From Paraliobacillus zengyii (GTDB taxonomy: Bacteria > Bacillota > Bacilli > Bacillales > Amphibacillaceae), in NCBI RefSeq assembly GCF_003268595.1, contig NZ_CP029797.1:62001-126000 (forward strand): a DNA stretch of 64,000 nt, written 5' to 3'. A model generated the notes under the pieces. It made no database searches, was not told the origin of the DNA, and saw nothing but the letters and a program-made list of their open reading frames with translations. The translations under genes and the position numbers were made by a program. Numbering within the stretch: position 1 is the first letter of the stretch; each line of letters opens with the position of its first letter. Positions 27,183 through 60,795 of this stretch are shown one piece after another.

Positions 27183-28910
27183 ATGTTAAAATTATTTCAA
27201 ATGCTTAAACCATATAGAGTATTTATAAGTTTTGTCCTGGTACTTGTGTCTATACAAACGTTATCACAATTGTATCTACCGACATTAATGGCTGATATTG
27301 TTGATAATGGAATTGTAAACGGAGATATCCCTTATATCACAAAAATTGGTGCGTTTATGTTAGTAGTAGCCTTGATTACGATGGTTGCCTCTATCCTTGC
27401 AAGTTTCTTTTCAGCTAAAGTCGCAGTAGGATTCGGTAAAGATCTGAGAAGACGTGTATTTAATCATGTAGAGAATTTTTCATTACATGAGTTTAATCAG
27501 ATTGGTACGTCATCATTAATTACAAGAACCACAAATGATATAAATCAACTTCAACAAGTGACGATAATGCTCTTGCGTATGTTACTTGCTGCACCAATGA
27601 TGGCTATTGGTGGAATCATTATGGCGGTCTCTAAAGATGCAAAGTTATCGCTTGTTTTTGTGGTTGCTATTCCAATACTTATTTTAACTATATCACTAAT
27701 AGCCATTAAAGGAATGCCATTATTTAAGGCTTTACAGAAAAAACTAGATCATTTAAATCTTGTTTTTAGGGAGTATTTAACCGGAATAAGAGTAATTCGC
27801 TCATTTAATCGGGAAAATTATGAAATGAAGCGGTATGACAAGATAAATAATGACTTTATGGATACAGCTACAACCGTTAATAAAATTATGGTATCACTTA
27901 TGCCAATTATGATGATCATCCTGAACTTCTCTACTATCGCAATCCTTTGGTTTGGAAGTATCCGAATAAGTAATGGTGGGATGCAAGTCGGAGATTTAAT
28001 GGCTTTTATTCAGTATGGCATGCAAATTATGTTCTCATTTATTATGGTTTCGATTGTTTTTGTTATGATTCCCAGAGCCCAAGTTTCATCAACACGAATC
28101 AATGAGGTACTCGAAATGAAATTTGAAATAAAAGACCCTATAAAACAAAAAAACAATAAAAATAAACAAGGATACATCGCATTTAATCATGTGAACTTTA
28201 GTTATCCTGGTGCAGAACAGGCCGCCATTTCTGATTTAACATTTGATGCAAAGCCTGGTGAAGTAACGGCAGTTCTCGGTGGAACAGGTTCAGGTAAATC
28301 AAGTTTAATTAATCTTATTCCTCGCTTTTACGATGTGACTAGCGGTAGCATCTTAATTGATGAAGTAGACATTCGTGATATGTCACAAGCCGATTTAAGA
28401 GATAAGATTGGATTAACACCACAAAAGGCAACGCTTTTTACAGGGACAGTTGCTGAAAATATTAGGTATGGTAAACAAGATGCATCAGATGAAGAGGTAA
28501 TACATGCAGCAACAGTTGCTCAAGCAAATGGATTTATTGAATCAATGGAAGGTAGCTATAATGCATCCATTACACAGGGTGGTTCTAATGTATCTGGGGG
28601 ACAAAAGCAACGATTAGCTATTGCTCGAACACTCGTGAAACGACCAGAAATTTATTTGTTTGATGACAGTTTTTCTGCGCTTGACTTTAAAACAGAAGCA
28701 ACTCTACGCGATGCTTTATCACAGGAAGTCAAAAAAGCTACAGTTATCATTGTTGCACAAAGAGTAGCAACTGTTATGGATGCAGACCGTATTATTGTTT
28801 TAAATGAAGGTAAAACAGCTGGTATTGGTACCCATAAAGAGTTAATGTCCAATTGTAACGTCTATCGAGAGATTGTATCCTCACAGTTATCAGAGGAGGA
28901 AATAGCATGA
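27183..28910 (+). CDS. ABC multidrug exporter half-transporter, degenerate-site subunit (YfiB-like)
   Basis: A six-helix membrane domain (about 1-310) is fused to an ATPase domain (about 330-575). Walker A is GGTGSGKSS and the signature is NVSGGQKQR. Walker B reads YLFDDSFSALD, with Asp in place of the catalytic Glu, and the switch His is replaced by Gln (VIIVAQRVAT). Those changes mark the subunit carrying the non-catalytic ATP site in heterodimeric exporters such as TM287/288 or BmrCD. Its partner overlaps by four bases. Substrate unknown, probably hydrophobic drugs. Confidence 0.9.
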   Translation: MLKLFQMLKPYRVFISFVLVLVSIQTLSQLYLPTLMADIVDNGIVNGDIPYITKIGAFMLVVALITMVASILASFFSAKVAVGFGKDLRRRVFNHVENFSLHEFNQIGTSSLITRTTNDINQLQQVTIMLLRMLLAAPMMAIGGIIMAVSKDAKLSLVFVVAIPILILTISLIAIKGMPLFKALQKKLDHLNLVFREYLTGIRVIRSFNRENYEMKRYDKINNDFMDTATTVNKIMVSLMPIMMIILNFSTIAILWFGSIRISNGGMQVGDLMAFIQYGMQIMFSFIMVSIVFVMIPRAQVSSTRINEVLEMKFEIKDPIKQKNNKNKQGYIAFNHVNFSYPGAEQAAISDLTFDAKPGEVTAVLGGTGSGKSSLINLIPRFYDVTSGSILIDEVDIRDMSQADLRDKIGLTPQKATLFTGTVAENIRYGKQDASDEEVIHAATVAQANGFIESMEGSYNASITQGGSNVSGGQKQRLAIARTLVKRPEIYLFDDSFSALDFKTEATLRDALSQEVKKATVIIVAQRVATVMDADRIIVLNEGKTAGIGTHKELMSNCNVYREIVSSQLSEEEIA

Positions 28911-33575: not shown

Positions 33576-35249
33576 TTAATCGGTATGATATTTACTTGTT
33601 GTATGTGCTAACGTATTTGATAATTGTAAAAGCTTGTTGCCAATTTCATTCGTTCCTTCCATTTGTTCAATTTGATTTTCACTAGCGGCCACCATTTCTT
33701 CTGAGCTTGCCAGTGTTTCTTGCGATACAGAAGCTAAATTATTTGCTGAAAGCTCTAACTGTGGCAACTCTCTTGTTATATCTGTTAATTCAGTATGCAT
33801 ATGTTTTATTCTACTACTTACATCCGTTATTTCATTCATTAATAGATCAAATGATTGTTTAGAGGTATCTGCCATCTTTAAAGTTGAGGTTGTTTTAAGT
33901 AGTACATGTTCAAATGCTAAGACGGCTTCGTTCGTTATCCCTTCCATGTTTGTAACAGTCTTAGTAATCTCTTCAGTTGCAAGTGAAGATTGGTCAGCTA
34001 GATTACGAACCTCCTGTGCTACTACCGCAAAACCTTTTCCTGCTTCACCAGCACGGGCTGCTTCAATTGAAGCGTTTAGTGCTAATAATTTCGTTTGATC
34101 GACAATCGTTTTTACTAAATCAACAAGACCTAGAATAGCATGAGAATTTTTCTTTACCTCTTTGATCGTGAGTGTTAATTGATTAAACTCTGTTTCAAAT
34201 TCACTAAATGTAAGAATTAATTTGCCAATATTCATTTCACCTGTTTGGGCAGATTGATTCATTTGTTCTGAGCGGTGAGACACACGCTCCATATTCATTA
34301 ACATGTGTTTCATTTTGGTATTCATTGTTTTAAAGGTTGATAGACTATCATCTGAACTACTTGCTGTTTGTTCTGCCCCAACTTTTACAATTTCAATAGC
34401 AGATATGAATTGATGGCTAGTTGAAAGGGTATGTTCTGAAGCGATTTTTAGCTCTTCGCCTGTAGATGACAATGCATTTGTCGTATTTTTCACTTCAGTT
34501 ATCATATTTATCATGTTTTCAATCATTGCATTATAGCTTTTATGTAATGAAATAAGTTCAGGTATCGTAGTTTGAATAGCTGGTGCAAACTTTAGATTTC
34601 CCTCGCGAACATATTTCATTGTGCTACGAAGGTAGTTAAGTGGTTTGGTAATTGATCGTACAAAGAGCATGCTGAGTAAAGTGGTAATTATTATGCTAAT
34701 GGCGGTAACAATAATAATAAAATAACCAAGATTGTATATTTGCCCCATATAAGAATCCGTAGGTACAATCATCGTGTAAATACCATCTATCTCTTTCATC
34801 TCATGGAAAGAGAGTGTATAATCTACGCCATCAATTTTTTGATGCATAATCCCATTGCTATTTTTGGATAAATCCTCAATAAATTGTTCTGATAATGTGG
34901 GTAGAGATTCACTACTAGTTTGAAAAGGAATAACTTCATTATTTTTGATGTAAAAGAAGTCAGAATTTATCCCATCTTGCTTCAGTTTTTCTTGTTGAGA
35001 TCGTACATTTGTTTCCAGTTGTTGTAGGAAATATGATGGGTCACTTACATAAACAAAGTTTAAGTTTTCTGCAATGTATTGCATTAAGTCGACTTCTCGT
35101 ACTAATCTATCTTCTATTGTTTGAATCGTTAATTCCTTTGCTTTTGTATAAGAGCTAAATCCAACTAGAATGATAGCAATTCCTAATAAGGAAATAAATA
35201 ATAGACTAAGCCTTGTACTTAAATTTAACTTTTTCATGATTTTCTTCAT
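33576..35249 (-). CDS. Methyl-accepting chemotaxis protein
   Basis: This 557-residue receptor has a membrane helix at about 14-32, an extracellular sensor of about 145 residues and a second helix near 175-200. HAMP (about 200-250, [17 protein letters not shown]) follows. The signalling hairpin has the tip [27 protein letters not shown] (given only as motif: [17 protein letters not shown]). The sensor is of the small Cache-like size; its ligand is unknown. TAATTAACCTCCAAT on the plus strand shows a GGAGG site before its start. It converges with the small gene at 33310. Confidence 0.9.
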
Positions 35250-35465: not shown

Positions 35466-36401
35466 ATGTCAAAAATAGTTGTAATTCATGAAAATGATGA
35501 TTGGACTGAACATTTAACGAAACGTTTAGAGGCATTGGGTTTTCCTTATGAATTATGGCATTTAGATAAAGGAATTATAGATCTCAGCTCTATACCTCCA
35601 GAAGGTGTTTATTATAATCGAATGAGTGCATCTTCCCATTCAAGAGGGCACCGATTTGCCCCCGAATTAACAGGTGCTGTGCTAACATGGTTGGAAAGTC
35701 ATGATCGTACTGTATTTAATGGGAGTAAAGCATTAAATCTTGAACTTAGCAAAATTAATCAATACGCTGCATTAGAGAGAAGTGGTATAAAGACACCTAA
35801 AACTATTGGAGCAGTTGGACGTGACCAGATTGTTGAGGCAGCTAAAAAGTTAGGAAAAGTACCATTTATCACAAAACATAATCGTGCGGGTAAAGGGTTA
35901 GGAGTTCAATTGTTCTATTCAATTGAAGGACTAGCGTCGTATTTAGACGGAGATGACTTTGAGGAACCAATTGATGGTATAACACTGATCCAGGAATATA
36001 TAGAATCACCAAAATCTTTCATTACTAGAGCGGAGTTCGTCGGTGGCAAATTTATATATGCAGTCAGGGTTGACACATCTGAAGGATTCGAGTTATGCCC
36101 AGCTGATGCTTGCCGAATTGATGATAAGTTCTGTCCGGTAGGAGAAGAGGAAGAAAGACTAATGTTTGAAATTATTGAAGATATGGATACAGCACTAATT
36201 CAAAAATATGAGAATTTCCTTCGTGAAAATGATATTGCTGTTGCGGGTATTGAGTTTATTAGTAATGATAAAGGTGAGCTTTTCACCTATGATGTTAATA
36301 CAAATACAAACTATAATTCAGATGCAGAAGCCAAGGCGAATAAATTTGGAATGTTAGAACTTGCAACACTTTTAGGAAACGCTTTGAAACAAGAACAATA
36401 A
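35466..36401 (+). CDS. RimK-like ATP-grasp ligase of unknown substrate
   Basis: The 311-residue protein has an ATP-grasp layout: N-terminal Rossmann-like part (1-95), ATP-binding block PFITKHNRAGKGLGVQLF (about 135-152), LIQEYIESP (about 178-186) and the metal site GIEFISNDKGELFTYDVNTNTNYN near residues 258-281, split here at GELF. The EF...DVNTNTNY end is typical of RimK/glutamate ligase-like enzymes that join an amine to an acyl phosphate. It stands alone with its own terminator. The substrate cannot be deduced, and the neighbours (chemoreceptor, electron-transfer cluster) give no direct clue. Confidence 0.8.
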   Translation: MSKIVVIHENDDWTEHLTKRLEALGFPYELWHLDKGIIDLSSIPPEGVYYNRMSASSHSRGHRFAPELTGAVLTWLESHDRTVFNGSKALNLELSKINQYAALERSGIKTPKTIGAVGRDQIVEAAKKLGKVPFITKHNRAGKGLGVQLFYSIEGLASYLDGDDFEEPIDGITLIQEYIESPKSFITRAEFVGGKFIYAVRVDTSEGFELCPADACRIDDKFCPVGEEEERLMFEIIEDMDTALIQKYENFLRENDIAVAGIEFISNDKGELFTYDVNTNTNYNSDAEAKANKFGMLELATLLGNALKQEQ

Positions 36402-36469: not shown

Positions 36470-37450
36470 CTATCGATTTCTATTTAGTAAACTAGTAGTA
36501 ACGTGATATAAAGTATCTTTATAAGTGCCATCGGGAAGTTTTTGCATTTCTTTTAACGCCTTTTTTGTATATCTTTCAGCAAGTGCTTGCGCCTTTTCTA
36601 CTCCTTTTTCTTTTTCAAGTGTTGAAATGATTAGGTGTCTTTCTTGTTCGGTAAAAGGTTCTTGCTTATTCAATATATTTTTTAATGTTCGTGGGTCACT
36701 TTGCATTGCATAAATTAATGGAAGGGTATAGATCCCCTGTTGCAGATCTGACATGACCGGTTTACCAATCGTTTTTTCATTCCCTCTATAATCAAGAATG
36801 TCATCCATAATTTGAAATGCCATCCCGATATAATGGCCCATATTCCATGCTGTCATTGTCTGTTTACGTGAGGCCTTGCTTTCAATAGCACCTGAATAGC
36901 AACTGACTGCAAATAGTTGTGCTGTTTTCCCTGAAATTCGTGCTAGGTAACTTTTTACACTAGTAGGTGGCTGATATCGAGAATGTAATTGATCTAATTC
37001 GCCACTTAATATTTTCTCCATACTACGCGAGTTAAATTCTAAGTGTGCTAATGATGTAGCATGTCTTGAGAGAATAGTAAAACAAACGGAAAATAAATAG
37101 TCACCAGAATAAATCGCAAATTGATTGCCGTGTGTGGTGTGAATAGTCGGTTGTCCATGTCTTGATGACGCTCCATCGATTACATCATCGTGAATTAATG
37201 TAGCCATATGCAATGTTTCTAATGCTGCGGAAACAGCGATTGCTTTCTCTTTATCTTGTTCAGGTCCTATTTCAGAGCAAAGTAAGGAATAAGCAGGACG
37301 CAGTAATTTACCACCTGAGTAAATGAGGTCTTTAATTGTTTTCTCAATTGTTTTATCACGAACACGAATATGCGCATTGATTAGTTCTAACCCTTTTTCT
37401 AAGTCCGTTTTTAAAGCAGGGTAGTTATTCCACATAGGATGTACACGCAT
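36470..37450 (-). CDS. dmkB: Polyprenyl (heptaprenyl-type) diphosphate synthase, DmkB-like
   Basis: This trans-prenyl synthase extends FPP with isopentenyl units. The two Asp-rich motifs are DDVID (88-92) and DDILD (216-220), with GGKLLRP (46-52) for substrate binding. The ATG at 37450 has AAAGGGG eight bases upstream; an in-frame ATG at 37468 is less likely. The usual B. subtilis hepT lies next to menH and hepS, whereas this copy lies in an electron-transfer cluster. A role making the prenyl tail for a dedicated demethylmenaquinone pool, like Listeria DmkB, is therefore inferred. It is 29 bases after the EetB-like gene. Confidence 0.82.
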   Translation of the reverse strand: MRVHPMWNNYPALKTDLEKGLELINAHIRVRDKTIEKTIKDLIYSGGKLLRPAYSLLCSEIGPEQDKEKAIAVSAALETLHMATLIHDDVIDGASSRHGQPTIHTTHGNQFAIYSGDYLFSVCFTILSRHATSLAHLEFNSRSMEKILSGELDQLHSRYQPPTSVKSYLARISGKTAQLFAVSCYSGAIESKASRKQTMTAWNMGHYIGMAFQIMDDILDYRGNEKTIGKPVMSDLQQGIYTLPLIYAMQSDPRTLKNILNKQEPFTEQERHLIISTLEKEKGVEKAQALAERYTKKALKEMQKLPDGTYKDTLYHVTTSLLNRNR

Positions 37451-37479
37451 GATGAAAACCCCTTTCATTAAAAATCATG

Positions 37480-38010
37480 TTACTTTAATTCTTGTAAGTC
37501 TCTATAATAATGTAGCTTTTCAATATGTGTTAATAGGTAGTTAGCAGCAATTCCAATGGCAATACCAGATAGAATTCCAATAAAAGCTAATACAGGTAAA
37601 TATAAAAGAACGGTCCATGTTTGAGCAATCCAACTGGCTACGGTAAGTTGTCCGACATTGTGGAGCACAGCTCCTGTAGTACTGACACCGATTAAACTTA
37701 TCCGTTTCGAGCCGAGTTTCTTAACTGCTAGCATCCCGATAAAACTAAGAATAGCTCCAGCGGCACTATACATAAAAGTAGAAATAGTGCCTCCTAGTAG
37801 GGTGGCTAGGACTAAACGTATGGCTACAACTTTACCTGCATCTCTAACGGATAAGGTATATATGGCCATGCATGTAATAATATTAGCTAAACCAAGTTTT
37901 GCTCCTGGAGCGATTGCAAAAGGAAAAGGGATTGCACGTTCTAATAAACTAATAATCACCGCTTGCGCAGCTAATAACGATATATAAACAAGACGTTGAT
38001 TTTTGGTCAT
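37480..38010 (-). CDS. eetB: Gx transporter / heptaprenyl diphosphate synthase component I-like membrane protein (EetB-like)
   Basis: The 176-residue protein has about five membrane helices, including AIAPGAKLGLANIITCMAIY and a Gly-rich last helix. It fits Pfam Hpre_diP_synt_I, whose members resemble ECF substrate-binding subunits. In the Listeria FLEET locus such a protein (EetB, as I recall the naming) is paired with EetA and helps electron transfer. The ATG at 38010 follows GGAAGTGG; the longer frame to 38037 is less likely. No EetA (NusG domain II) gene is beside it. Its exact activity is not established. Confidence 0.72.
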   Translation of the reverse strand: MTKNQRLVYISLLAAQAVIISLLERAIPFPFAIAPGAKLGLANIITCMAIYTLSVRDAGKVVAIRLVLATLLGGTISTFMYSAAGAILSFIGMLAVKKLGSKRISLIGVSTTGAVLHNVGQLTVASWIAQTWTVLLYLPVLAFIGILSGIAIGIAANYLLTHIEKLHYYRDLQELK

Positions 38011-38066
38011 CGTGCCACTTCCAATCTCTTGCTGCATAGAATCTCGTGTTTCAACTAGACTTCATA

Positions 38067-38090
38067 TTTGTTGTCTTAAAAAACAACAAA
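38067..38090. other. Inverted repeat in the ndh2-eetB gap
   Basis: TTTGTTGT (38067-38074) and ACAACAAA (38083-38090) can form a stem ahead of the EetB-like gene. It is not followed by a T-run in that gene's direction. It may be a leader hairpin; its function is unknown. The rest of 38091-38205 shows no clear promoter that I can defend. Confidence 0.35.
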
Positions 38091-38205
38091 AGGTAAAAAA
38101 GAAACATGCGTTAATAATACTATGATACCAATGTTTCATTACTTTAGCACCATCATTGTGCATCCTTCTTATTTTCCCTTCATTGTTTTTAAAAAATGAG
38201 GGGAT

Positions 38206-38240
38206 GAATAGTGAAAGGCTTAAAGAACCTCTCACTATTC
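38206..38240 (-). terminator. Possible ndh2 terminator
   Basis: On the minus strand a 13-bp stem (one mismatch-tolerant G-T pair) lies ten bases after the ndh2 stop. The T-run comes nine bases later rather than at once, so efficiency is uncertain. Confidence 0.5.
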
Positions 38241-38249
38241 CTCTTCAAC

Positions 38250-40124
38250 CTACTTCTTATCTTGATAAATTGCTTGTTCTTTCCCATACCACCAGTTACC
38301 TACTTTGCGCTGAATGTAAGGTATTACCCAGTAGTCTAAACCGAACGTACGTCCAGAGCCATTTAATAAGGCAATTGCTGCTGGAAGGGCCCATATTTTA
38401 TCCCATCCAAGCATAGCGGATAGAGTAAACATTACGAGGAATCCAGCGCTTGCTGCACTTGCTAACCATGTGAATAGACCAGCAAGAATTGCTAACCCAA
38501 TTGCCAATTCAACAAACACCATGAATTTCTGCATGAAAACAGCCATTTCAGGCGTAGGCAAGACTATTTGCATAAACCATTCAAAAATACCAGGCATCTT
38601 GCTGAAAATAGGTGTTGACCATTCTGTAGCCGTTTCTGCTGCTTCACTTGCACCACTTGTGGTCGTTTGTAACCATTCAAACGGCATTCTGACTGTTGAT
38701 CCGACTAACCATGAATCCTCTCCTAGGCCATTAAATAGCTGAGGAATAGTTGAAAAACTAGCTGTTGCTGTTTCCCACGTTTCTTTACCCCATATTTTCG
38801 CACCAGCTTCCACTAGCCAAAAACCTGCTACGAAAAGACGTAATGGTAAACTCCATAGTACATTTCCATGTCTTGTTAAGAAATCGTGGAAAATATTACG
38901 TTTATCTTTTGTTTCAAAGAATTCGTGTCGGATATAATGAAACATATAATAGCCACTTCTGATTCCGAAGAAATAATAAAGGTTAACCATGTGCTTCATA
39001 AAGTTTGCTAACCAACCACTTAAGTGAACACCCATTAAATCAGCTACACCGTAACGAGCGCCAATTGACACCATCGTTCCGTGATATTTGCCTTCATACG
39101 CTTCTTTTTCTCCACCACTAATTTCAGCAATAATACTTTTAGCTGCTGTCATACCTGTTTGTTCAGCTGCTTCAACAATTTGTGGTGTTGCTTTACCTGG
39201 TTCTTCTTCATAATAAGCTAAGTCACCAATTACATAGACATTCTCAAAGTCTTCTGATTCCATATATTGATTTACTTTTAACCGACCTGCACGTGCTGTG
39301 GACATACCATAATCTTTGGTATCTGAATTCGCTTTGACCCCAGCTGTCCAAATTAATGTATGTGTAGGTACAGTTTCACCAGATTTTAAGATGATTTCAT
39401 TTTCCTTAACCTCAACTATAGGGGAATCTTTGAGAATTTTAACGCCTTTTTTTACTAAATAAGCTTCTGCTTTATCTGCATCTCTACGCTCAAGCATATT
39501 TAAGATCGTTGGGGCAGCTTCTACTACATATAATGTAATAGCATCTGGATCAATTTTATTGTTTTTTGCTAGACGTTCCTTCCATTCTACCAATTCCCCA
39601 ACCATCTCAATTCCAGTAAATCCAGAACCACAAACAGTAAATGTCAGCATCGCACAACGTGTTCCATCATCTTTTATGACAGCTGCCTGTGCAACGGTTT
39701 TTTCAATATGCTCGCGGAGTTTCACAGCATCTTCCCAAGACCATAACGTGAAACCATTTTCTTTTACACCAGGAGTTCCGAAATCATTTGGCTCTCCACC
39801 CATACCAAGAATTAAATAATCAAAATTATATTCTCCATGTTCCGTTGTAACTTTTTTTGCATCGTGATCTACATTGATTACATTGTCTGTTACTAATTTC
39901 ACTTTCGTACGGTTAAATAAGCGACGTAAGTCAAATTGAATTGCATCAGGCTCTACGCGGTGAGCAGCGACTTCATGTAATTCAGTCATCATTGTGTGAT
40001 AAGAATGACGGTCAATTAAAGTGATCGTAACAGAATCATCTTTTTTGTACTTTTTTGCAAGTTTTTGTGCGGCATGAACGCCAGCATAACCAGCACCAAT
40101 AACAATGATATTCTTGTTTGTCAT
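38250..40124 (-). CDS. ndh2: Type II NADH dehydrogenase with C-terminal membrane domain (Ndh2-like)
   Basis: The N-terminal ~430 residues form a two-dinucleotide-fold flavoprotein: FAD site VIGAGYAG (8-15), NADH site VCGSGFTGIE near 165 and VYVIGDLAYY near 300. The remaining ~195 residues contain about four hydrophobic helices like a DoxX domain, making 624 residues against about 390-400 for ordinary NDH-2. That long form is the mark of Ndh2 in the Listeria FLEET locus, which passes electrons from NADH to demethylmenaquinone. GAGTGC/GGAGT lies before its ATG. It diverges from the flavin transferase gene and has a Rex-like site in its promoter. Confidence 0.85.
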   Translation of the reverse strand: MTNKNIIVIGAGYAGVHAAQKLAKKYKKDDSVTITLIDRHSYHTMMTELHEVAAHRVEPDAIQFDLRRLFNRTKVKLVTDNVINVDHDAKKVTTEHGEYNFDYLILGMGGEPNDFGTPGVKENGFTLWSWEDAVKLREHIEKTVAQAAVIKDDGTRCAMLTFTVCGSGFTGIEMVGELVEWKERLAKNNKIDPDAITLYVVEAAPTILNMLERRDADKAEAYLVKKGVKILKDSPIVEVKENEIILKSGETVPTHTLIWTAGVKANSDTKDYGMSTARAGRLKVNQYMESEDFENVYVIGDLAYYEEEPGKATPQIVEAAEQTGMTAAKSIIAEISGGEKEAYEGKYHGTMVSIGARYGVADLMGVHLSGWLANFMKHMVNLYYFFGIRSGYYMFHYIRHEFFETKDKRNIFHDFLTRHGNVLWSLPLRLFVAGFWLVEAGAKIWGKETWETATASFSTIPQLFNGLGEDSWLVGSTVRMPFEWLQTTTSGASEAAETATEWSTPIFSKMPGIFEWFMQIVLPTPEMAVFMQKFMVFVELAIGLAILAGLFTWLASAASAGFLVMFTLSAMLGWDKIWALPAAIALLNGSGRTFGLDYWVIPYIQRKVGNWWYGKEQAIYQDKK

Positions 40125-40172
40125 AATAAATTTGCACTCCTCTAATAAAATTTAGAAATCTGAAAACTTCCA

Positions 40173-40190
40173 TTGTGAATCATTGAACAA
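40173..40190. promoter_or_regulatory. Rex-like operator at the ndh2 promoter
   Basis: TTGTGAATCATTGAACAA matches the Rex consensus TTGTGAA-N4-TTCACAA at all seven left and five of seven right positions. It sits ten bases downstream of the predicted ndh2 -10 (minus strand), over the transcription start. Rex leaves DNA when NADH rises, so ndh2 would be induced when NADH accumulates. Confidence 0.68.
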
Positions 40191-40199
40191 CTAATTTAT

Positions 40200-40228
40200 A
40201 TTTTACAGCTAGTTCTAGAAAGTGTCTA
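40200..40228 (-). promoter_or_regulatory. ndh2 promoter
   Basis: On the minus strand TAGACA (40223-40228), a 17-base spacer and TAAAAT (40200-40205) form a good sigma-A promoter. Confidence 0.65.
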
Positions 40229-40385
40229 GAGTTTTTAAAGATTATATATAAATAATTCTATAAAGTTCACAAGTTAGTAATAAAATAAAATAAACTAAAA
40301 AGTTCATTAAGTTTTCATATTTAAAGAAACAGCTATACAACAGGCTTTTCTCCATATAAACGTGGAAAAGGAACGGATCGTTAGA

Positions 40386-40414
40386 TAGACACTAAAAATA
40401 AGCGATGCTATACT
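40386..40414 (+). promoter_or_regulatory. fmnB-dmkA promoter
   Basis: TAGACA (40386-40391), 17 bases and TATACT (40409-40414), with TG one base before the -10. The -35 is the same hexamer as in the divergent ndh2 promoter. Confidence 0.65.
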
Positions 40415-40426
40415 TATAAAATAATA

Positions 40427-40444
40427 ATGTGATTTTGTTCACAA
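40427..40444. promoter_or_regulatory. Rex-like operator at the fmnB promoter
   Basis: ATGTGATTTTGTTCACAA matches the Rex consensus at five of seven left and all seven right positions. It begins 12 bases after the -10, mirroring the site at the divergent ndh2 promoter. Confidence 0.68.
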
Positions 40445-40506
40445 TTAGATTATTAGATTATAAGACAGATGTAAGTCTATTATTTTATAGAGAGGTTTTG
40501 ATAGTG

Positions 40507-41577
40507 ATGAAAATAAAAAACACAGCAATTATAATGTTTATTGTTTTATTTTTTTTAACAAGCTGTAGTTCAGAAGATAACGGTGTGATGGAAACACCTT
40601 ATAAGCAAACAGAGTTTTTAATGGGCACAGTGGTCACGGTTAAAATTTATAATGAAGAAAAAGAAACGGTTTTAAAAAAGGTGTTTGAACGAATGGAAGT
40701 CCTTGCTAGTCAAATTGGTTTAGAAGAGGATGCGGGGGTATCACAAATTGACGAGGTTAATGCTCAAGCGGGTATAGAACCTGTTATAGTATCGGAAGAA
40801 ATATTTCAGTTAATAAAAGCAGGCAAAGATTATAGTCAAAAAGCCGAGGGTTCATTTGATATTACGATAGGTCCTTTAACGTCACTATGGCATATTGGCT
40901 ATGATGATGCGCGTAAACCTGATCAAGAAGAGATTGATGCCGTTCTTCCATTAATAGATTATCGAAAGGTTATATTAGATGAAGAGAAGCATACGGTTTA
41001 TTTAAAAGAGAAAGATATGCGCATAGACTTGGGTGCAATTGCTAAAGGCTTTATAGCTGATCAAGTTAACAAAGTGCTTGAAGAAAATGATGTGACAACA
41101 GCTATTATCGATTTAGGTGGAAATATTTATGTGGAAGGAACCAATCCTTCTGGTAAAGAGTGGACTGTTGGAATTCAAGATCCGTTCTCAACACGTGGGG
41201 AAACGGTCGGTAAGATAGAAGCAAGTAATCAATCCATTGTAACCTCTGGAGTCTATGAAAGGTATTTAGAAGTAGATGGTGAAAGATACCATCATTTACT
41301 CGATCCAAAAGCAGGCTATCCATTTGATAATGAAATCGCAGGCGTAACAATTGTTAGTAAGAAGTCAATAGACGGGGATGCGTTGTCAACATTAATTTTT
41401 TCGAAAGGGTTAGAGGATGGAATGGCGTTTATCGAAAAACAGGATGGTGTGGAAGCAATCTTTGTGGATAAAGATAACAAGATCTTTCTTACTTCTGGCT
41501 TGGAGGATGAATTCGAATTAACGAATGAATCCTTTATAATCGGAGATAGTTCTTTGAAAAATGAAGGGAGCGAATAA
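40507..41577 (+). CDS. fmnB: ApbE-family flavin transferase lipoprotein, FmnB-like
   Basis: ApbE-type enzymes move FMN from FAD onto a Thr or Ser of a target protein outside the membrane. A lipoprotein signal ends in LTSC (Cys20). The ApbE core includes FLMGTVVTVKIY, GSFDITIGPLTSLW, DLGAIAKGFIADQV and DLGGNIYVEG, with the metal-site block GDALSTLIFSKG near 310. The ATG at 40507 follows GAGAGG; earlier in-frame codons cover the promoter region. In Listeria FmnB flavinylates PplA; no such target is seen here. It is the first gene of an operon with dmkA, one base apart. Confidence 0.87.
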   Translation: MKIKNTAIIMFIVLFFLTSCSSEDNGVMETPYKQTEFLMGTVVTVKIYNEEKETVLKKVFERMEVLASQIGLEEDAGVSQIDEVNAQAGIEPVIVSEEIFQLIKAGKDYSQKAEGSFDITIGPLTSLWHIGYDDARKPDQEEIDAVLPLIDYRKVILDEEKHTVYLKEKDMRIDLGAIAKGFIADQVNKVLEENDVTTAIIDLGGNIYVEGTNPSGKEWTVGIQDPFSTRGETVGKIEASNQSIVTSGVYERYLEVDGERYHHLLDPKAGYPFDNEIAGVTIVSKKSIDGDALSTLIFSKGLEDGMAFIEKQDGVEAIFVDKDNKIFLTSGLEDEFELTNESFIIGDSSLKNEGSE

Positions 41578-41578
41578 A

Positions 41579-42520
41579 ATGTCTATTTCAACATTTCTAA
41601 AATTAGTAGAAATTCAGACTAAGATAGCGAGCGTCTTTCCATTTTTAATTGGTTGCTTATTTGTTTATTATCGTTATGATACGTTCCAACCATTAAATAC
41701 AGCGATCTTTTTTGTTGCGATGCTTTCCTTTGATCTAACAACAACTGCGATTAATAATTATATGGATTTTAGAAAAGCCTCATCTGAAAGCTATCGAGAG
41801 AACCACAATGTGATTGGTCAATATAAAATCAGGGAGATTGTAGTCATTATTACAATTTTAAGTTTATTAACCCTGGCTACAGGTTTAGGAATCTGGCTTG
41901 TGTTCCGGACAGATTTATTCGTGTTATTAGTTGGAATGGTTTGTTTTGCAATAGGCATTTTTTATACATTTGGCCCGATTCCCTTGTCTCGCATGCCACT
42001 TGGTGAGTTATTCTCTGGTGTATCAATGGGATTCGGTATTGTATTCTTATCTGTATATGTCAATGCATTCGATCAAGGTATTTTACATTTATTATGGGAA
42101 GGTAGGACAGTTCTCTTTGAAGCTGATATTCTATTACTATTAGAGATTATGTTAGTTTCCTTCCCATGTATGTTTACCATAGCTAATTTGATGCTAGCTA
42201 ATAATATTTGTGACTTAAAAGAGGATATTGCCAATCATCGCTTTACACTGCCTTATTACATTGGAAAAAAATATGCTGTCTGGCTGTTTAATGGTTTATA
42301 TTTTCTTTCATTTTTAGCAATCTTAGTCGCAGTAATTCTCGGTCTATTACCACCTATTGTTATTATTGCACTATTAGTTAGTTATCCAGTCTATCAGCTA
42401 GTTCGTAAATTTAATCGGAAACAGATTAAATCAGAAACATTTTCTGTAGCGATAAAAAACCTGGTGTTAGTAAATGGTTCGGTTGTAACCATGTTAATGA
42501 TATCGATATTTATTCTTTAA
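41579..42520 (+). CDS. dmkA: UbiA-family prenyltransferase (MenA/DmkA-like)
   Basis: The 313-residue protein has about nine membrane helices and the two Asp-bearing motifs of UbiA enzymes, NNYMDFRKA near residue 60 and NNICDLKEDIAN near residue 210. MenA-type members attach a polyprenyl chain to 1,4-dihydroxy-2-naphthoate to make demethylmenaquinone. A second MenA next to fmnB and ndh2 fits the DmkA role in FLEET. ATG 41579 follows GAAGGGAG; the frame can also be read from 41561 inside fmnB. Substrate is inferred from context. Confidence 0.82.
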   Translation: MSISTFLKLVEIQTKIASVFPFLIGCLFVYYRYDTFQPLNTAIFFVAMLSFDLTTTAINNYMDFRKASSESYRENHNVIGQYKIREIVVIITILSLLTLATGLGIWLVFRTDLFVLLVGMVCFAIGIFYTFGPIPLSRMPLGELFSGVSMGFGIVFLSVYVNAFDQGILHLLWEGRTVLFEADILLLLEIMLVSFPCMFTIANLMLANNICDLKEDIANHRFTLPYYIGKKYAVWLFNGLYFLSFLAILVAVILGLLPPIVIIALLVSYPVYQLVRKFNRKQIKSETFSVAIKNLVLVNGSVVTMLMISIFIL

Positions 42521-42633
42521 CTCAACTTTCTCACTTAAAAAAAGCGCTAAAAATTGGCTGTTATGAGTTTGGCGTGTGTTCATTATAAAGGTTGACACTT
42601 TTAAAAATGTTTATTACTGCATACCCATAGACT

Positions 42634-42722
42634 CTGTCGTAACTGCCATGTTGATTTCTGCTACGGAAAGGGAGTCAATTTCATTTGAGGAGCGGGTAAG
42701 AACTTTATACCTCTTATGACAG
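42634..42722. repeat. Partial copy of the intergenic repeat family
   Basis: The left end CTGTCGTAAC (42634-42643) and right end CTTATGACAG (42713-42722) are near inverse complements. Bases 42625-42662 match, on the opposite strand, the segment at about 6615-6654 with one change. Then GGAAAGGGAGTCAATTTCA copies the right end of copy 2. It looks like an element that has lost its left half. It fills most of the 365-base dmkA-ecfA1 gap; no promoter is evident in the rest. Confidence 0.68.
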
Positions 42723-42885
42723 AATTCCTCTCAGTGCGTCAAGTCAAACGCACGGATGATTACAAAGTAGCGTGAAGTTAACTTCTGTTTTGGATCATTC
42801 TTGTTATATCAAGATTTAAGCGACTGTTTTATAGTGCGAAGGTTGAATTCTTTAATATATGTTAGAAGGGAAAGGAGAAAGTTTG

Positions 42886-43701
42886 ATGGAGCTATCTACA
42901 ATTTTAGAAGTACGAGATCTAGCATTTCGTTATGATTTACGAGTGAAAAAACAGACTTTATCTGATGTCTCCCTTTCTGTGAAAAAGGGCGAATGGGTTG
43001 CAATTGTTGGAGATAATGGATCAGGAAAATCCACTTTAGCCCGATTACTAGTTGGATTAATGGAAGTGGAAAAAGGAACAATCAATATTAATGGCCTTGA
43101 ATTAAATGAACTATCAAAATGGGATATTCGTAAACAAGTAGGGATCGTGTTCCAAAATCCTGAAAATCAGTTTATAGGTACAAGCGTTCAAGATGATATC
43201 GCGTTTGGTTTGGAAAATATAAATATGCCCTATGATGAAATGAAGAAAAGAGTAGATATCGCACTAGAATTAGTGGGAATGCGTAATCATGCATTAACGG
43301 ATCCTTCGCAATTATCTGGCGGTCAGAAGCAAAGAGTTGCGATCGCAGGTATTCTTGCCTTAACACCTAAATTAATCATTTTAGATGAAGCGTTTGTTAT
43401 GCTAGATCCAAAAAGCCGAAGTGGATTATTTGCTACTTTACAGAAGTTAAAAGAGAGAGAGTCAATAGCCATTATATCTATTACCCATGACCGAAATGAG
43501 GCAGCACTTGCTGACAGAATCCTGTTGATGGATAATGGCACAATTGTACAAGAAGGTACGCCAAGAGAGGTTTTTATGAAAAACAAACAACTAGAAGCTC
43601 CTTTTTCAGAACAACTTCGACGTAACTTGCAAGCCCGTGGTCGAAACATACCGGAGACTTATATGACAGAAGATGAACTGGTGACATGGTTATGCAAATA
43701 A
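42886..43701 (+). CDS. ecfA1: ECF transporter ATPase EcfA1
   Basis: This is an energy-coupling-factor ABC ATPase for vitamin uptake. Walker A is GDNGSGKST, the signature is LSGGQKQRVAIAG and Walker B is LIILDEAFVMLDP. The ATG at 42886 is eight bases after AAAGGAG; an ATG at 42859 adds nine unlikely residues. The 271 residues match the family. In B. subtilis ecfA1-ecfA2-ecfT follow rplQ; here the set follows the flavin/demethylmenaquinone genes. Whether another set exists elsewhere cannot be seen. Confidence 0.93.
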   Translation: MELSTILEVRDLAFRYDLRVKKQTLSDVSLSVKKGEWVAIVGDNGSGKSTLARLLVGLMEVEKGTININGLELNELSKWDIRKQVGIVFQNPENQFIGTSVQDDIAFGLENINMPYDEMKKRVDIALELVGMRNHALTDPSQLSGGQKQRVAIAGILALTPKLIILDEAFVMLDPKSRSGLFATLQKLKERESIAIISITHDRNEAALADRILLMDNGTIVQEGTPREVFMKNKQLEAPFSEQLRRNLQARGRNIPETYMTEDELVTWLCK

Positions 43702-44549
43702 AATTTGAAAATGTAACAGCAGATTATCAAATAGGACCGCTAAAAAATGCAAACGTAGTAAAGGACATAGTGCTGACACTGCCAACAAGGTCATTTACAG
43801 CAATAGTTGGCCACACTGGTGCCGGTAAATCAAGTTTATTGAAGACAGTTAACGGATTACTATTACCAAGTACGGGAAGTATCATCGTTGGCAATACAGT
43901 AATAACAGCAAATAAGGAAAAACAAGCACTAAAGAAAATAAGGAAACATGTAGGAATGGTGTTTCAGTTTCCAGAAGCACAATTATTTGCTGAAACAGTT
44001 GAAAAGGATATTCAGTTTGGGCCGATGAATTTTGGTGTATCAGTGGGTGAAGTAAAGGAAAGAACGAAACAAGCTATCTATGCAGTGGGATTAGATGAAG
44101 CCATATTAAAAATGTCACCTTTTTCCTTGTCAGGAGGACAACAAAGACGAGTGGCTATTGCTGGTGTTCTAGCGACGAATCCAGATGTCTTACTCTTAGA
44201 TGAACCCGGAGCAGGTTTAGATCCAGAGGGGAAACGAGGCATTTTATCAATGATAAAAAAGATTCATGTAGAAAGAGGACTAACAACAATTATTGTTACG
44301 CATGATATGGATGATGTTGCTAAATATGCTGAAGATGTAGTAGTAATGGAGAAAGGAACGATTGCCGCCCACCAATCAGTAAAAACCTTTTTTTCAGATC
44401 CTGAAAGATTGGAAAAATGGCATGTGGAATTGCCAGAGGCCAGAAAGCTGCAATTAAAAATAGAGCGACAAACAGGTGTTAAAATGCCAGATGTATGTTT
44501 GACAATCGATGAACTGACAGAAGGATTAATTGAGGTGGGCTTGGCATGA
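43686..44549 (+). CDS. ecfA2: ECF transporter ATPase EcfA2
   Basis: The second ATPase of the module has Walker A GHTGAGKSS, signature LSGGQQRRVAIAG and Walker B VLLLDEPGAGLDP. It begins inside the end of ecfA1 (overlap 16 bases) and overlaps ecfT by four bases, so all three are translationally coupled. A second in-frame ATG at 43692 is an equally possible start. With EcfA1 it forms the ATPase heterodimer that drives shared substrate-binding subunits. Confidence 0.93.
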   Translation: MVMQIKFENVTADYQIGPLKNANVVKDIVLTLPTRSFTAIVGHTGAGKSSLLKTVNGLLLPSTGSIIVGNTVITANKEKQALKKIRKHVGMVFQFPEAQLFAETVEKDIQFGPMNFGVSVGEVKERTKQAIYAVGLDEAILKMSPFSLSGGQQRRVAIAGVLATNPDVLLLDEPGAGLDPEGKRGILSMIKKIHVERGLTTIIVTHDMDDVAKYAEDVVVMEKGTIAAHQSVKTFFSDPERLEKWHVELPEARKLQLKIERQTGVKMPDVCLTIDELTEGLIEVGLA

Positions 44550-45358
44550 ATAAGCTAATATTAGGTCGTTACTTTCCTGGCGATTCACGGATACATCTTT
44601 TAGATCCACGAGCAAAATTAATTACTGCTATTTATTTTATAGGTATTATATTTATTGCGAATAACTGGCAAACTTATGTATTGTTAGGTCTTTTCACCTT
44701 TATCGTCATGTTTCTTTCGGGAGTGAAAATAAAAACCTATTTACGTGGTGTGCGTCCACTTATCTGGTTAATATTATTTACGGTGTTCCTTCAAGTATTA
44801 TTCACTGGCGGTGGAACGGTTTATATAGATTGGGGTCCCATAACGATTTCAACATTCGGTTTACTAAATGGACTATATATTTTTTGCCGATTTGTAATGA
44901 TTATCTTTATCTCAACCGTTGTAACATTAACAACAAAACCTATCGACTTAACAGATGGTATTAATTCCTTACTGCGTCCGTTACGTTTTTTTAAGCTTCC
45001 TGTTGATGAAATTGCATTGATGCTTTCTATTTCTTTACGTTTTATTCCGAATTTATTAGATGAAACACAAAAAGTGATGGATGCACAACGGGCACGAGGT
45101 ACTACTTTTGGAGAAGGATCACTAGTAGATCAAATGAAAAAACTCATTCCTATCATCATGCCGTTATTTGTTAGTTCTTTAAGAAGAGCGGAAAATATGG
45201 CTGATGTAATGGAGGTGAGAGGGTATCAATCAGACAAGCCTAGATCAAGTTTTCGAAGGCTAGCTTGGCAAAAATCAGATACTATTAGTTTGTTAGTAAT
45301 GGCGATTTTAACGGTAGTACTTGTTGTCTTACGTTCTAACGTAGTTACTTATTTATAA
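44546..45358 (+). CDS. ecfT: ECF transporter transmembrane subunit EcfT
   Basis: EcfT is the membrane scaffold of ECF transporters, linking EcfA1A2 to substrate-binding subunits. The 270 residues have about five to six hydrophobic helices and the coupling-helix motifs with Ala-Arg-Gly: DAQRARGTTFG near residue 178 and MEVRGYQSDKPR near 220. No substrate-binding (S) component lies in the window, so the vitamin is unknown; flavin is suggested by the neighbours and by the flavin transport of FLEET in Listeria. Confidence 0.93.
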   Translation: MNKLILGRYFPGDSRIHLLDPRAKLITAIYFIGIIFIANNWQTYVLLGLFTFIVMFLSGVKIKTYLRGVRPLIWLILFTVFLQVLFTGGGTVYIDWGPITISTFGLLNGLYIFCRFVMIIFISTVVTLTTKPIDLTDGINSLLRPLRFFKLPVDEIALMLSISLRFIPNLLDETQKVMDAQRARGTTFGEGSLVDQMKKLIPIIMPLFVSSLRRAENMADVMEVRGYQSDKPRSSFRRLAWQKSDTISLLVMAILTVVLVVLRSNVVTYL

Positions 45359-59958: not shown

Positions 59959-60795
59959 TTGTATCGAAATATCAAAACAAGGCATGGTAATATTAACTTA
60001 GATAAAAAGACAGTAGTAATGGGAATCCTTAATGTGACACCTGACTCTTTCTCTGATGGAGGCAAGCACGATCAACGTGATCGTGCGGTTCAACATGCTA
60101 TTGCGATGGAACGTGCGGGAGCGGATATTATAGATATAGGTGGAGAGTCTACAAGACCTGGTCACGAACCGGTTTCTGAAGAAGAGGAGATAGCGCGTGT
60201 TATTCCTATTATAAAAAAAATAAGAGAACAAGTATCTGTGCCAATTTCAATTGATACGTTCAAAGCGGAAACGGCAAAACAAGCGATTTCTGCAGGGGCA
60301 GACATTATCAATGATATATGGGGTGCGAAAAGGGAGCCTGAAATAGCTGAGGTTGCTGCTACACATAAAGTTCCGATTATTTTAATGCATAATCGTGCAG
60401 ATCACGTGTATACATCTTTAATTGAAAATGTATTAGATGATCTTAGAGAAAGTATAAATATAGCCTTGAATAAAGGTGTGTTACAAGAACAAATAATCTT
60501 GGATCCTGGTATAGGTTTTGCTAAAAATGCCGTTCAAAATATGGAAGTTATAAGACATCTGGAGCAATTGTTAACACTAGATTATCCGTTACTATTAGGA
60601 ACATCACGAAAATCAATAATCGGAAAAACATTAGATTTACCTACTGATCAAAGAGATGTGGGAACGGGTGCAACTACATGCTTTGGTATAACAAAAGGTG
60701 TTGATATTGTCCGTGTGCATAATGTTGAAATGACTGTTCAACTGACAAAAATGATGGATGCGATGATCGGAAAAGGTGGTAAAGTAGATGGATAA
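59959..60795 (+). CDS. folP: Dihydropteroate synthase
   Basis: FolP condenses p-aminobenzoate with hydroxymethyl-dihydropterin diphosphate in folate synthesis. Motifs are MGILNVTPDSFSDGG (residues about 22-36), IDIGGESTRPG, and DPGIGFAK, ending with GTGATTCFGITKGVDIVRVHNV in part (KGVDIVRVHNV). The likely start is TTG at 59959, about eight bases after AGGGGCG, giving 278 residues; the first ATG at 60019 would cut into the conserved core. It overlaps folB by eight bases. Confidence 0.93.
   Translation: MYRNIKTRHGNINLDKKTVVMGILNVTPDSFSDGGKHDQRDRAVQHAIAMERAGADIIDIGGESTRPGHEPVSEEEEIARVIPIIKKIREQVSVPISIDTFKAETAKQAISAGADIINDIWGAKREPEIAEVAATHKVPIILMHNRADHVYTSLIENVLDDLRESINIALNKGVLQEQIILDPGIGFAKNAVQNMEVIRHLEQLLTLDYPLLLGTSRKSIIGKTLDLPTDQRDVGTGATTCFGITKGVDIVRVHNVEMTVQLTKMMDAMIGKGGKVDG

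Follow-up and report, generated by a model that had tools for sequence, protein, structure and literature searches.

The closest described relatives of the locus treated here are the eight-gene systems for flavin-based extracellular electron transfer (FLEET) of Listeria, in which EetB, FmnA, and EcfA/A′ export flavin adenine dinucleotide (FAD) (PMC9973259). Loci without pplA have been reported earlier for Alkalibacterium (A. pelagium) and Aerococcus (PMC10572741), and Lactococcus has been reported with all FLEET genes except pplA (PMC8837199). In L. plantarum, Ndh2 is needed in all four assays, PplA is dispensable for flavin-dependent iron reduction, and the authors invoke an unknown oxidoreductase or route (PMC9888254). 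The subject of this text is a FLEET-like gene cluster at positions 36470–45358 of a 64,000-nucleotide stretch of the Paraliobacillus zengyii genome (G000:C1:62001-126000, called the window below), which consists of one contig of 3.73 Mb with a listed completeness of 100.

The window locus shares the missing pplA with Alkalibacterium pelagium, Aerococcus, and Lactococcus, which were compared by their published descriptions; the available parts of these reports propose no substitute carrier and do not discuss the loop of Ndh2. On balance, and by a modest measure, the cluster is probably a PplA-less variant of Gram-positive FLEET in which the transferase FmnB would flavinylate Ndh2, so that Ndh2 would do the job of PplA. 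This reading builds on features seen in the sequence, namely the gene content, the absence of PplA, a conserved motif in Ndh2, the co-occurrence of FmnB and Ndh2, and the position of the motif-bearing loop between membrane helices.

Composition and orthology of the locus

All eight frames of the cluster are present where the initial annotation had placed them, and all are open. The genes dmkB, eetB, and ndh2 diverge from fmnB-dmkA-ecfA1-A2-T, in which fmnB and dmkA overlap by 17 bases and ecfA1-A2-T by 16 and 4 bases. The features are the following.

36470–37468, minus strand: DmkB, polyprenyl diphosphate synthase (PF00348, polyprenyl_synt)
37480–38037, minus strand: EetB, S-component of an energy-coupling factor (ECF) transporter, FAD exporter by homology (PF07456, Hpre_diP_synt_I)
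38250–40124, minus strand: Ndh2, 624-residue NADH dehydrogenase with a DoxX-like membrane domain (Pyr_redox_2)
38646–38666, minus strand: Ndh2 codons for residues 487–493 (TTTSGAS), an ApbE-type motif without Asp, with Ser493 as proposed acceptor
40428–40443, no strand assigned: palindrome TGTGA-N6-TCACA, a candidate CRP/FNR-type site upstream of fmnB
40504–41577, plus strand: FmnB, lipoprotein FAD:protein flavin mononucleotide (FMN) transferase of the ApbE family (PF02424; lipobox)
41561–42520, plus strand: DmkA, 1,4-dihydroxy-2-naphthoate polyprenyltransferase (UbiA; PRK13387 at 385 bits, cut-off 316)
42859–43701, plus strand: EcfA1, ECF ATPase (ABC_tran)
43686–44549, plus strand: EcfA2, ECF ATPase (ABC_tran)
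44546–45358, plus strand: EcfT/FmnA, ECF transmembrane component (PF02361, CbiQ)

The fmnB start is most likely 40504 rather than the listed 40429, with a predicted lipoprotein signal that ends in LTSC. Of 45 named loci from relatives, 31 keep all eight genes in the same order, which shows that they are not grouped by chance. Among named organisms, Paraliobacillus quinghaiensis has the closest Ndh2 (89% identity).

Judged by identity and phylogeny, the cluster proteins are orthologues of the FLEET set of Listeria and Sporolactobacillus. Their identity to the proteins of Listeria grayi (72% for Ndh2 and EetB, 58% for DmkA, 56% for EcfT of the FLEET locus, 54% for DmkB, and 51% for FmnB) can be set beside their identity to paralogues of their own genome (29% for DmkA and MenA, 34% for DmkB and HepT, 38% for EcfT, 40% for FmnB and a second ApbE); the second copies of EcfA1 and EcfA2 are 49% and 42% identical to those of the cluster. 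Genome-wide, there are three matches to UbiA, four to the polyprenyl synthase family, and three to CbiQ. The initial annotation had proposed a FLEET-like cluster of the families named above, which orthology and conserved gene order bear out; its “Gx-transporter-like” protein is EetB, recognized by PF07456.

The same annotation had named two outcomes that would speak against a dedicated pathway, and neither was found. The first, Ndh2 as an ordinary type II NADH dehydrogenase (NDH-2), is rejected by a tree of 55 rows, in which 49 EET-type proteins (EET, extracellular electron transfer) stand apart as a clade from six ordinary NDH-2s, two of them from this genome, with a Shimodaira–Hasegawa-like approximate likelihood ratio test (SH-aLRT) value of 100. 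The tree was made by a quick method and came with long-branch warnings for two pairs, namely L080/L081 and the genome's own two ordinary NDH-2s. The second, DmkA and DmkB as sole MenA and HepT, is rejected because the genome encodes a MenA and a HepT besides them. DmkA passes the model PRK13387 and the other MenA passes PRK06080.1-1 and menA; the HepT equivalog cut-off of 456.55 bits is passed by the genome's own HepT (500 bits) and failed by DmkB (259.9 bits). By names assigned on reading, the other MenA adjoins menF- and menD-like frames, and HepT adjoins a menG-like and a HepS-like frame. A second ecfA1-A2-T set lies downstream of rpoA- and rplQ-like frames.

The locus thus has an NADH dehydrogenase with an extra membrane domain, a flavin transferase lipoprotein, DmkA and DmkB distinct from MenA and HepT, and EetB with ECF components assigned to FAD export by sequence only. 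It also falls under the operational EET rule of PMC8238504, which asks for a K03885 protein with a transmembrane helix in a flavinylation-associated cluster, with Ndh2 judged by its family match and predicted helices.

The Listeria loci (L. grayi L062, L. riparia L064, and L. booriae L065) carry the same DmkB, EetB, Ndh2, FmnB, DmkA, and EcfT orthologues in the same divergent arrangement and order. Unlike the window, all three have pplA, and L064 and L065 (not L062) have eetA. The window locus in turn includes ecfA1-ecfA2 of its own, and it has the perfect palindrome that is missing from these Listeria loci. Sporolactobacillus nakayamae (L067) has the same full set with ecfA1-A2-T in the locus and a perfect palindrome; it differs from the window locus in having both pplA and eetA.

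Absence of PplA and retention of FmnB

No match to the FMN-binding domain of PplA (PF04205, FMN_bind) was found in the whole genome at an E-value of 0.001. An overlooked PplA is rejected as an explanation, since PF04205 detects PplA at an E-value of about 1e-14, and a PplA relocated to another part of the genome is rejected by the lack of any genome-wide match. For EetA, tblastn gave no match at window positions 28001–52000 (the rest of the genome was not searched). The spaces left at the locus measure 379 and 212 bases, the latter between eetB and ndh2, and are too short for pplA or eetA. Because PplA is absent from the genome, the route to outside flavins is not the Listeria route. The initial proposal that NADH electrons are sent to flavins outside the membrane therefore keeps the support of the FLEET orthologues and loses the Listeria path by which they would get there.

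Among the 45 named loci, pplA is found in 12 and eetA in 30; PplA is not at the locus in the remaining 33. FmnB is matched at 44 of the 45, the exception being L081. In a set of 150 genomes, 26 (the window's own included) encode an EET-type Ndh2, defined by a score of at least 788 bits, with the next match outside the set at 241.9 bits. An ApbE is encoded close to ndh2, on the same contig and within a few kb, in all 26. The ApbE proteins were split at 276 bits, a value chosen after the scores had been seen; the next row is G091 (269.4 bits), which has no EET-type Ndh2. Some ApbE is present in 14 of the other 124 genomes, with 269.4 bits as the best score. PplA beside ndh2 is missing in 25 of the 26 genomes, and 21 of the 26 have no FMN_bind match at all. 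G008, G039, G060, and G074 have FMN_bind only on contigs other than that of ndh2, in frames of 591–812 residues, and G109 has PplA-sized frames beside ndh2. The PplA-less locus is found in all 24 family members with an EET-type Ndh2; judging from gene content, this kind is common in the family of the window's organism.

A class-wide sample of 398 genomes contains, apart from that of the window, 36 with a full-length match to the Ndh2 C-terminal domain, and ApbE is present in 36 of 36. Many of them also have PplA-like neighbours; 33 of the 36 were fetched (G480, G208, and G318 were left out).

The best solved relative of FmnB is 7esa (E-value 6.2e-132), the structure of FmnB from Listeria monocytogenes. 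In the alignment to 7esa, read by residue spacing, the active-site residues reported for the Listeria enzyme (Ser, Glu, Arg, His, and Asp; PMC8906456) are all present in FmnB.

Two of the surveyed loci, L049 (8832–17623, Caldibacillus thermoamylovorans) and L059 (5472–14038, Bacillus kwashiorkori), each hold two pplA-ndh2 pairs.

Topology and loop motif of Ndh2

Ndh2 consists of a dinucleotide-binding domain followed by hydrophobic stretches at about residues 420–444 and 520–587. In the AlphaFold2 model, built from 34 sequences, the mean predicted local distance difference test score (pLDDT) is 81.2 and the predicted template modelling score (pTM) is 0.66. Helices are predicted at 422–445, 525–548, 552–568, and 579–587, the first two of which flank the motif loop. 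The motif falls in a segment, 488–502, with pLDDT below 50, residue 487 lying just outside it. The loop has a net negative charge, and one membrane helix (422–445) stands between it and the cytosolic domain. With a single membrane crossing after the cytosolic domain, the loop is predicted to lie on the outer face and would be extracytosolic in the model. A DoxX match slightly below its cut-off (22.6 against 23.6 bits) and a TQO/DoxD match, both weak, agree with what may be a small membrane domain that reacts with quinone. By sequence, the C-terminal domain of Ndh2 has no relative among solved structures; the one match was at chance level (E-value 0.56).

The published ApbE motif is D-x-x-[S/T]-G-A-[S/T], of which seven residues suffice for labelling; replacement of Asp by Ala has a minor effect, replacement of Gly by Ala about halves labelling in a model protein, Thr is preferred to Ser, and surface loops are labelled to a lower degree (PMC12052999). 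The Ndh2 loop between the first two membrane helices varies in length and letters except near one place. In 22 representatives less than 75% identical to one another, drawn from a full set of 101 sequences, columns 487–493 hold D in 11, a variable residue, T in 12, S/T in 19, G in 16 (A in 4, S in 2), A in 22, and S/T in 22.

Motif counts were compared with those obtained after residues had been shuffled within the loops. D..[ST]GA[ST] occurs in 6 of the 22 loops against 0.03 expected, [ST]GA[ST] in 14 against 0.55, and the wide form [ST][GAS]A[ST] in 20 against 1.86. The three forms occur in 18, 63, and 99 of all 101 sequences, and outside the loop, in 12500 residues of the representatives, 0, 1, and 10 times, respectively. 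The two representatives without the wide form, L080 and L176, both read AGAS. The counts left out the Ndh2 of L155, removed by a span filter and holding DAASGAS in its loop, and that of L034 (G082), matched in two pieces. The tetrad [A/S/T]-[G/A]-A-[S/T] is kept in L080, L081, L077, and L074, which are 39–63% identical overall, while its surroundings change.

Within the locus the motif singles out one protein. The comparison took in 31 PplA-less loci, namely that of the window and 30 of the 33 named ones; the three omitted, L074, L080, and L081, are distant and differ in gene content. The wide form is present in Ndh2 at 31 of 31 and next in DmkB at 4 of 28; it is found in DmkA at 2 of 31, in FmnB, EcfA2, and EcfT at 1 of 31 each, and in EetB (0/30), EcfA1 (0/31), and EetA (0/17) at none. 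By this count, Ndh2 is the only one of the nine proteins to keep an ApbE-type motif throughout. Of the 31 Ndh2 proteins, 19 have the canonical form [ST]GA[ST] and 2 the full motif that includes Asp. A general occurrence of the motif in DoxX proteins was rejected, as it is carried by none of 19 standalone DoxX proteins recognized among 20 fetched regions. ApbE substrates without FMN_bind (DUF2271, DUF3570, Flavodoxin_4, and FMN_red) likewise carry an [S/T]GA[S/T]-like site and are encoded beside apbE (PMC8238504, PMC11334425). Unlike these, Ndh2 would join the donor, the membrane part, and the outer flavin in one chain.

Two further kinds of Ndh2 loop were seen. The Turicibacter locus L074 encodes two Ndh2 copies, the second with a long loop and two SGAT sites. 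In L160–L178, from genomes of about 5–7 Mb, a distant Ndh2 (34–38% identical) often has two D-x-x-S-A-A-S-like sites in its loop, and its gene adjoins PplA-like and DmkB-like genes.

Proposed mechanism and alternative explanations

In the proposed mechanism, EetB together with EcfA1-A2-T would export FAD. The lipoprotein FmnB would then attach FMN to Ser493, or to a hydroxyl close to it, in the Ndh2 loop on the outer face. Ndh2 would oxidize NADH in the cytosol and reduce a quinone made by DmkA/DmkB, which may form a separate demethylmenaquinone pool. The tethered FMN outside would be reduced by the quinol or by the membrane domain and would in turn reduce ferric iron, free flavins, or other acceptors. 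These comparisons give good grounds for, though no proof of, the hypothesis that Ndh2 carries the flavin in place of PplA. Flavinylation of Ndh2 is not stated in the available parts of PMC8837199, PMC9888254, PMC9094743, PMC12810646, and PMC10572741, a set that excludes the founding FLEET papers of 2018 and 2019.

Several points weigh against flavinylation of Ndh2. The window's Ndh2 reads TTTSGAS, which lacks Asp and offers Ser, less liked by ApbE than Thr, as acceptor. The canonical tetrad is missing in 12 of the 31 PplA-less loci, where the sequence is SAA[ST] or SSA[ST] instead. The loop is rich in Ala, Ser, and Thr and modelled with low confidence, and no domain is seen that would hold the flavin. 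Motif-bearing Ndh2 and PplA occur together in many species, so the motif is not tied to the loss of PplA. Shuffling of residues leaves shared ancestry in place, which makes the persistence of the tetrad in distant relatives the stronger argument. From the literature, deletion of eetA/eetB in L. plantarum abolished flavin-dependent reduction, an effect ascribed to EetA (PMC9888254), which the window locus lacks. Lactococcus lactis is among strains with little to no ferrihydrite reduction and belongs to a genus reported without pplA (PMC8837199). The flavinylated proteins named for Listeria in the available sources are PplA and FrdA, not Ndh2.

The alternative that survives best, though unlikely, is shuttling by free flavins: Ndh2 and the quinol would reduce diffusing FAD or FMN exported by EetB and the ECF module, FmnB would act on FAD or play a minor part, and the loop motif would be an unmodified linker. 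It fits the retained export module, the iron reduction of L. plantarum with added riboflavin, which proceeds without PplA and still needs Ndh2 (PMC9888254), and the promotion of iron reduction by free flavins in cell extracts of Amphibacillus xylanus (PMC13398963). It leaves unexplained why FmnB is kept beside ndh2 in 26 of 26 genomes, with conserved active-site residues in the window copy, and why the Ala and the Ser/Thr of the loop are invariant.

Alternatively, FmnB may modify another, unrecognized extracytosolic protein encoded elsewhere, perhaps at a non-canonical site. Genomes with an orphan ApbE that lacks a known substrate are on record (PMC8238504), and the genome-wide motif search covered canonical, Asp-bearing sites only; it returned, among others, a protein of 127 residues that has DLTSGAT and a signal-like start (G000:2985390-2985773). 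This explanation is considered improbable, as coding canonical matches are few genome-wide and no other protein of the locus keeps the motif throughout. The DNA search gave 15 canonical matches against 14 in a reversed control. Among these, five end in TG, which rules out Ser or Thr at the last position, and one, at window position 60655, lies inside a pterin-binding enzyme. The nine remaining matches were all fetched. Frames of at least 80 residues that contain the motif are those of the FMN_red protein described below (with two sites), of a Clp-like and a glutamate synthase-like protein, both named by reading only, and of the 127-residue protein.

Decay of the locus after loss of PplA and EetA, to the point that it no longer performs extracellular electron transfer, would agree with two of the eight Listeria FLEET genes being missing and is very improbable, given that the remaining frames are all open, that similar PplA-less loci occur in many genera, that 37 of 43 regions hold a perfect FNR-type site, that deletion of eetA left activity unchanged in Listeria monocytogenes (PMC9973259), and that community data have led to Amphibacillus being counted among the probable contributors to indigo reduction (PMC10572741).

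Flavinylation of Ndh2 by FmnB, if true, would partly explain the PplA-independent iron reduction of L. plantarum as well as ApbE proteins without a substrate; 4% of the genomes in a flavinylation data set have an ApbE without known substrate (PMC8238504). In that case, the minimal electron exporter of Gram-positive bacteria would be the NADH dehydrogenase itself. Extended to the phylum, the proposal is more tentative and about evenly balanced: EET-type Ndh2 across Bacillota may be an unrecognized ApbE substrate that uses NADH inside, quinone in the membrane, and covalent FMN outside, with PplA as an accessory that many lineages would have dispensed with.

Regulation

The perfect palindrome TGTGA-N6-TCACA upstream of fmnB is the only match in the window when up to one mismatch is allowed. 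With a chance mean of 2.4 at this tolerance, the palindrome of the window carries no weight by itself. Across loci, 37 of the 43 intergenic regions that separate ndh2 from the divergent operon hold it in perfect form (36 of 42 when the window is set aside), against 0.01 expected after mononucleotide shuffling, a comparison in which the related loci share descent. The 43 regions are those of the window and of 42 of the 45 named loci, L074, L080, and L081 being left out as distant and of other gene content. The palindrome is not perfect in the three Listeria loci, nor in L056, L063, and L077.

The genome has three CRP/FNR-type helix-turn-helix matches above the cut-off. Two of these frames, one of them incomplete, end in the cysteine clusters CENCPIVLC and CEYCPIEI, as in the iron–sulphur Fnr of Bacillus. 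The locus is probably under anaerobic control, with an FNR-type protein as candidate regulator. By eye, the A that precedes TGTGA at most sites presumably fits the Rex consensus less well, which does not settle the choice between Rex and FNR. No riboswitch was found in the locus; across the whole window tRNA alone reached the gathering score.

Other flavinylation loci and flanking genes

The second ApbE of the genome adjoins a 398-residue FMN_red/PAS protein whose tail holds DAGSGAS and DAGSGAT; by gene neighbourhood and motif this protein is likely its substrate. An FMN_red type of ApbE substrate has already been described (PMC11334425). This locus (L102, G000:C1:3115651-3118452) encodes two FMN_red proteins, one of them with the PAS domain and the two-site tail. 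The 127-residue DLTSGAT protein (L104, G000:C1:2985390-2985773) has no Pfam match, and its motif is possibly due to chance. In the family member G091 (C1:3018352-3021672; L086, L091, and L095), an ApbE lies between FMN_bind frames, one of them with two domains; by its gene content this is a different flavinylated system.

The window also encodes a SpoIIE protein, in agreement with a spore-former. Next to the cluster lie genes for a methyl-accepting chemotaxis protein (33576–35249, minus strand) and a RimK-like ATP-grasp protein (35466–36401, plus strand).

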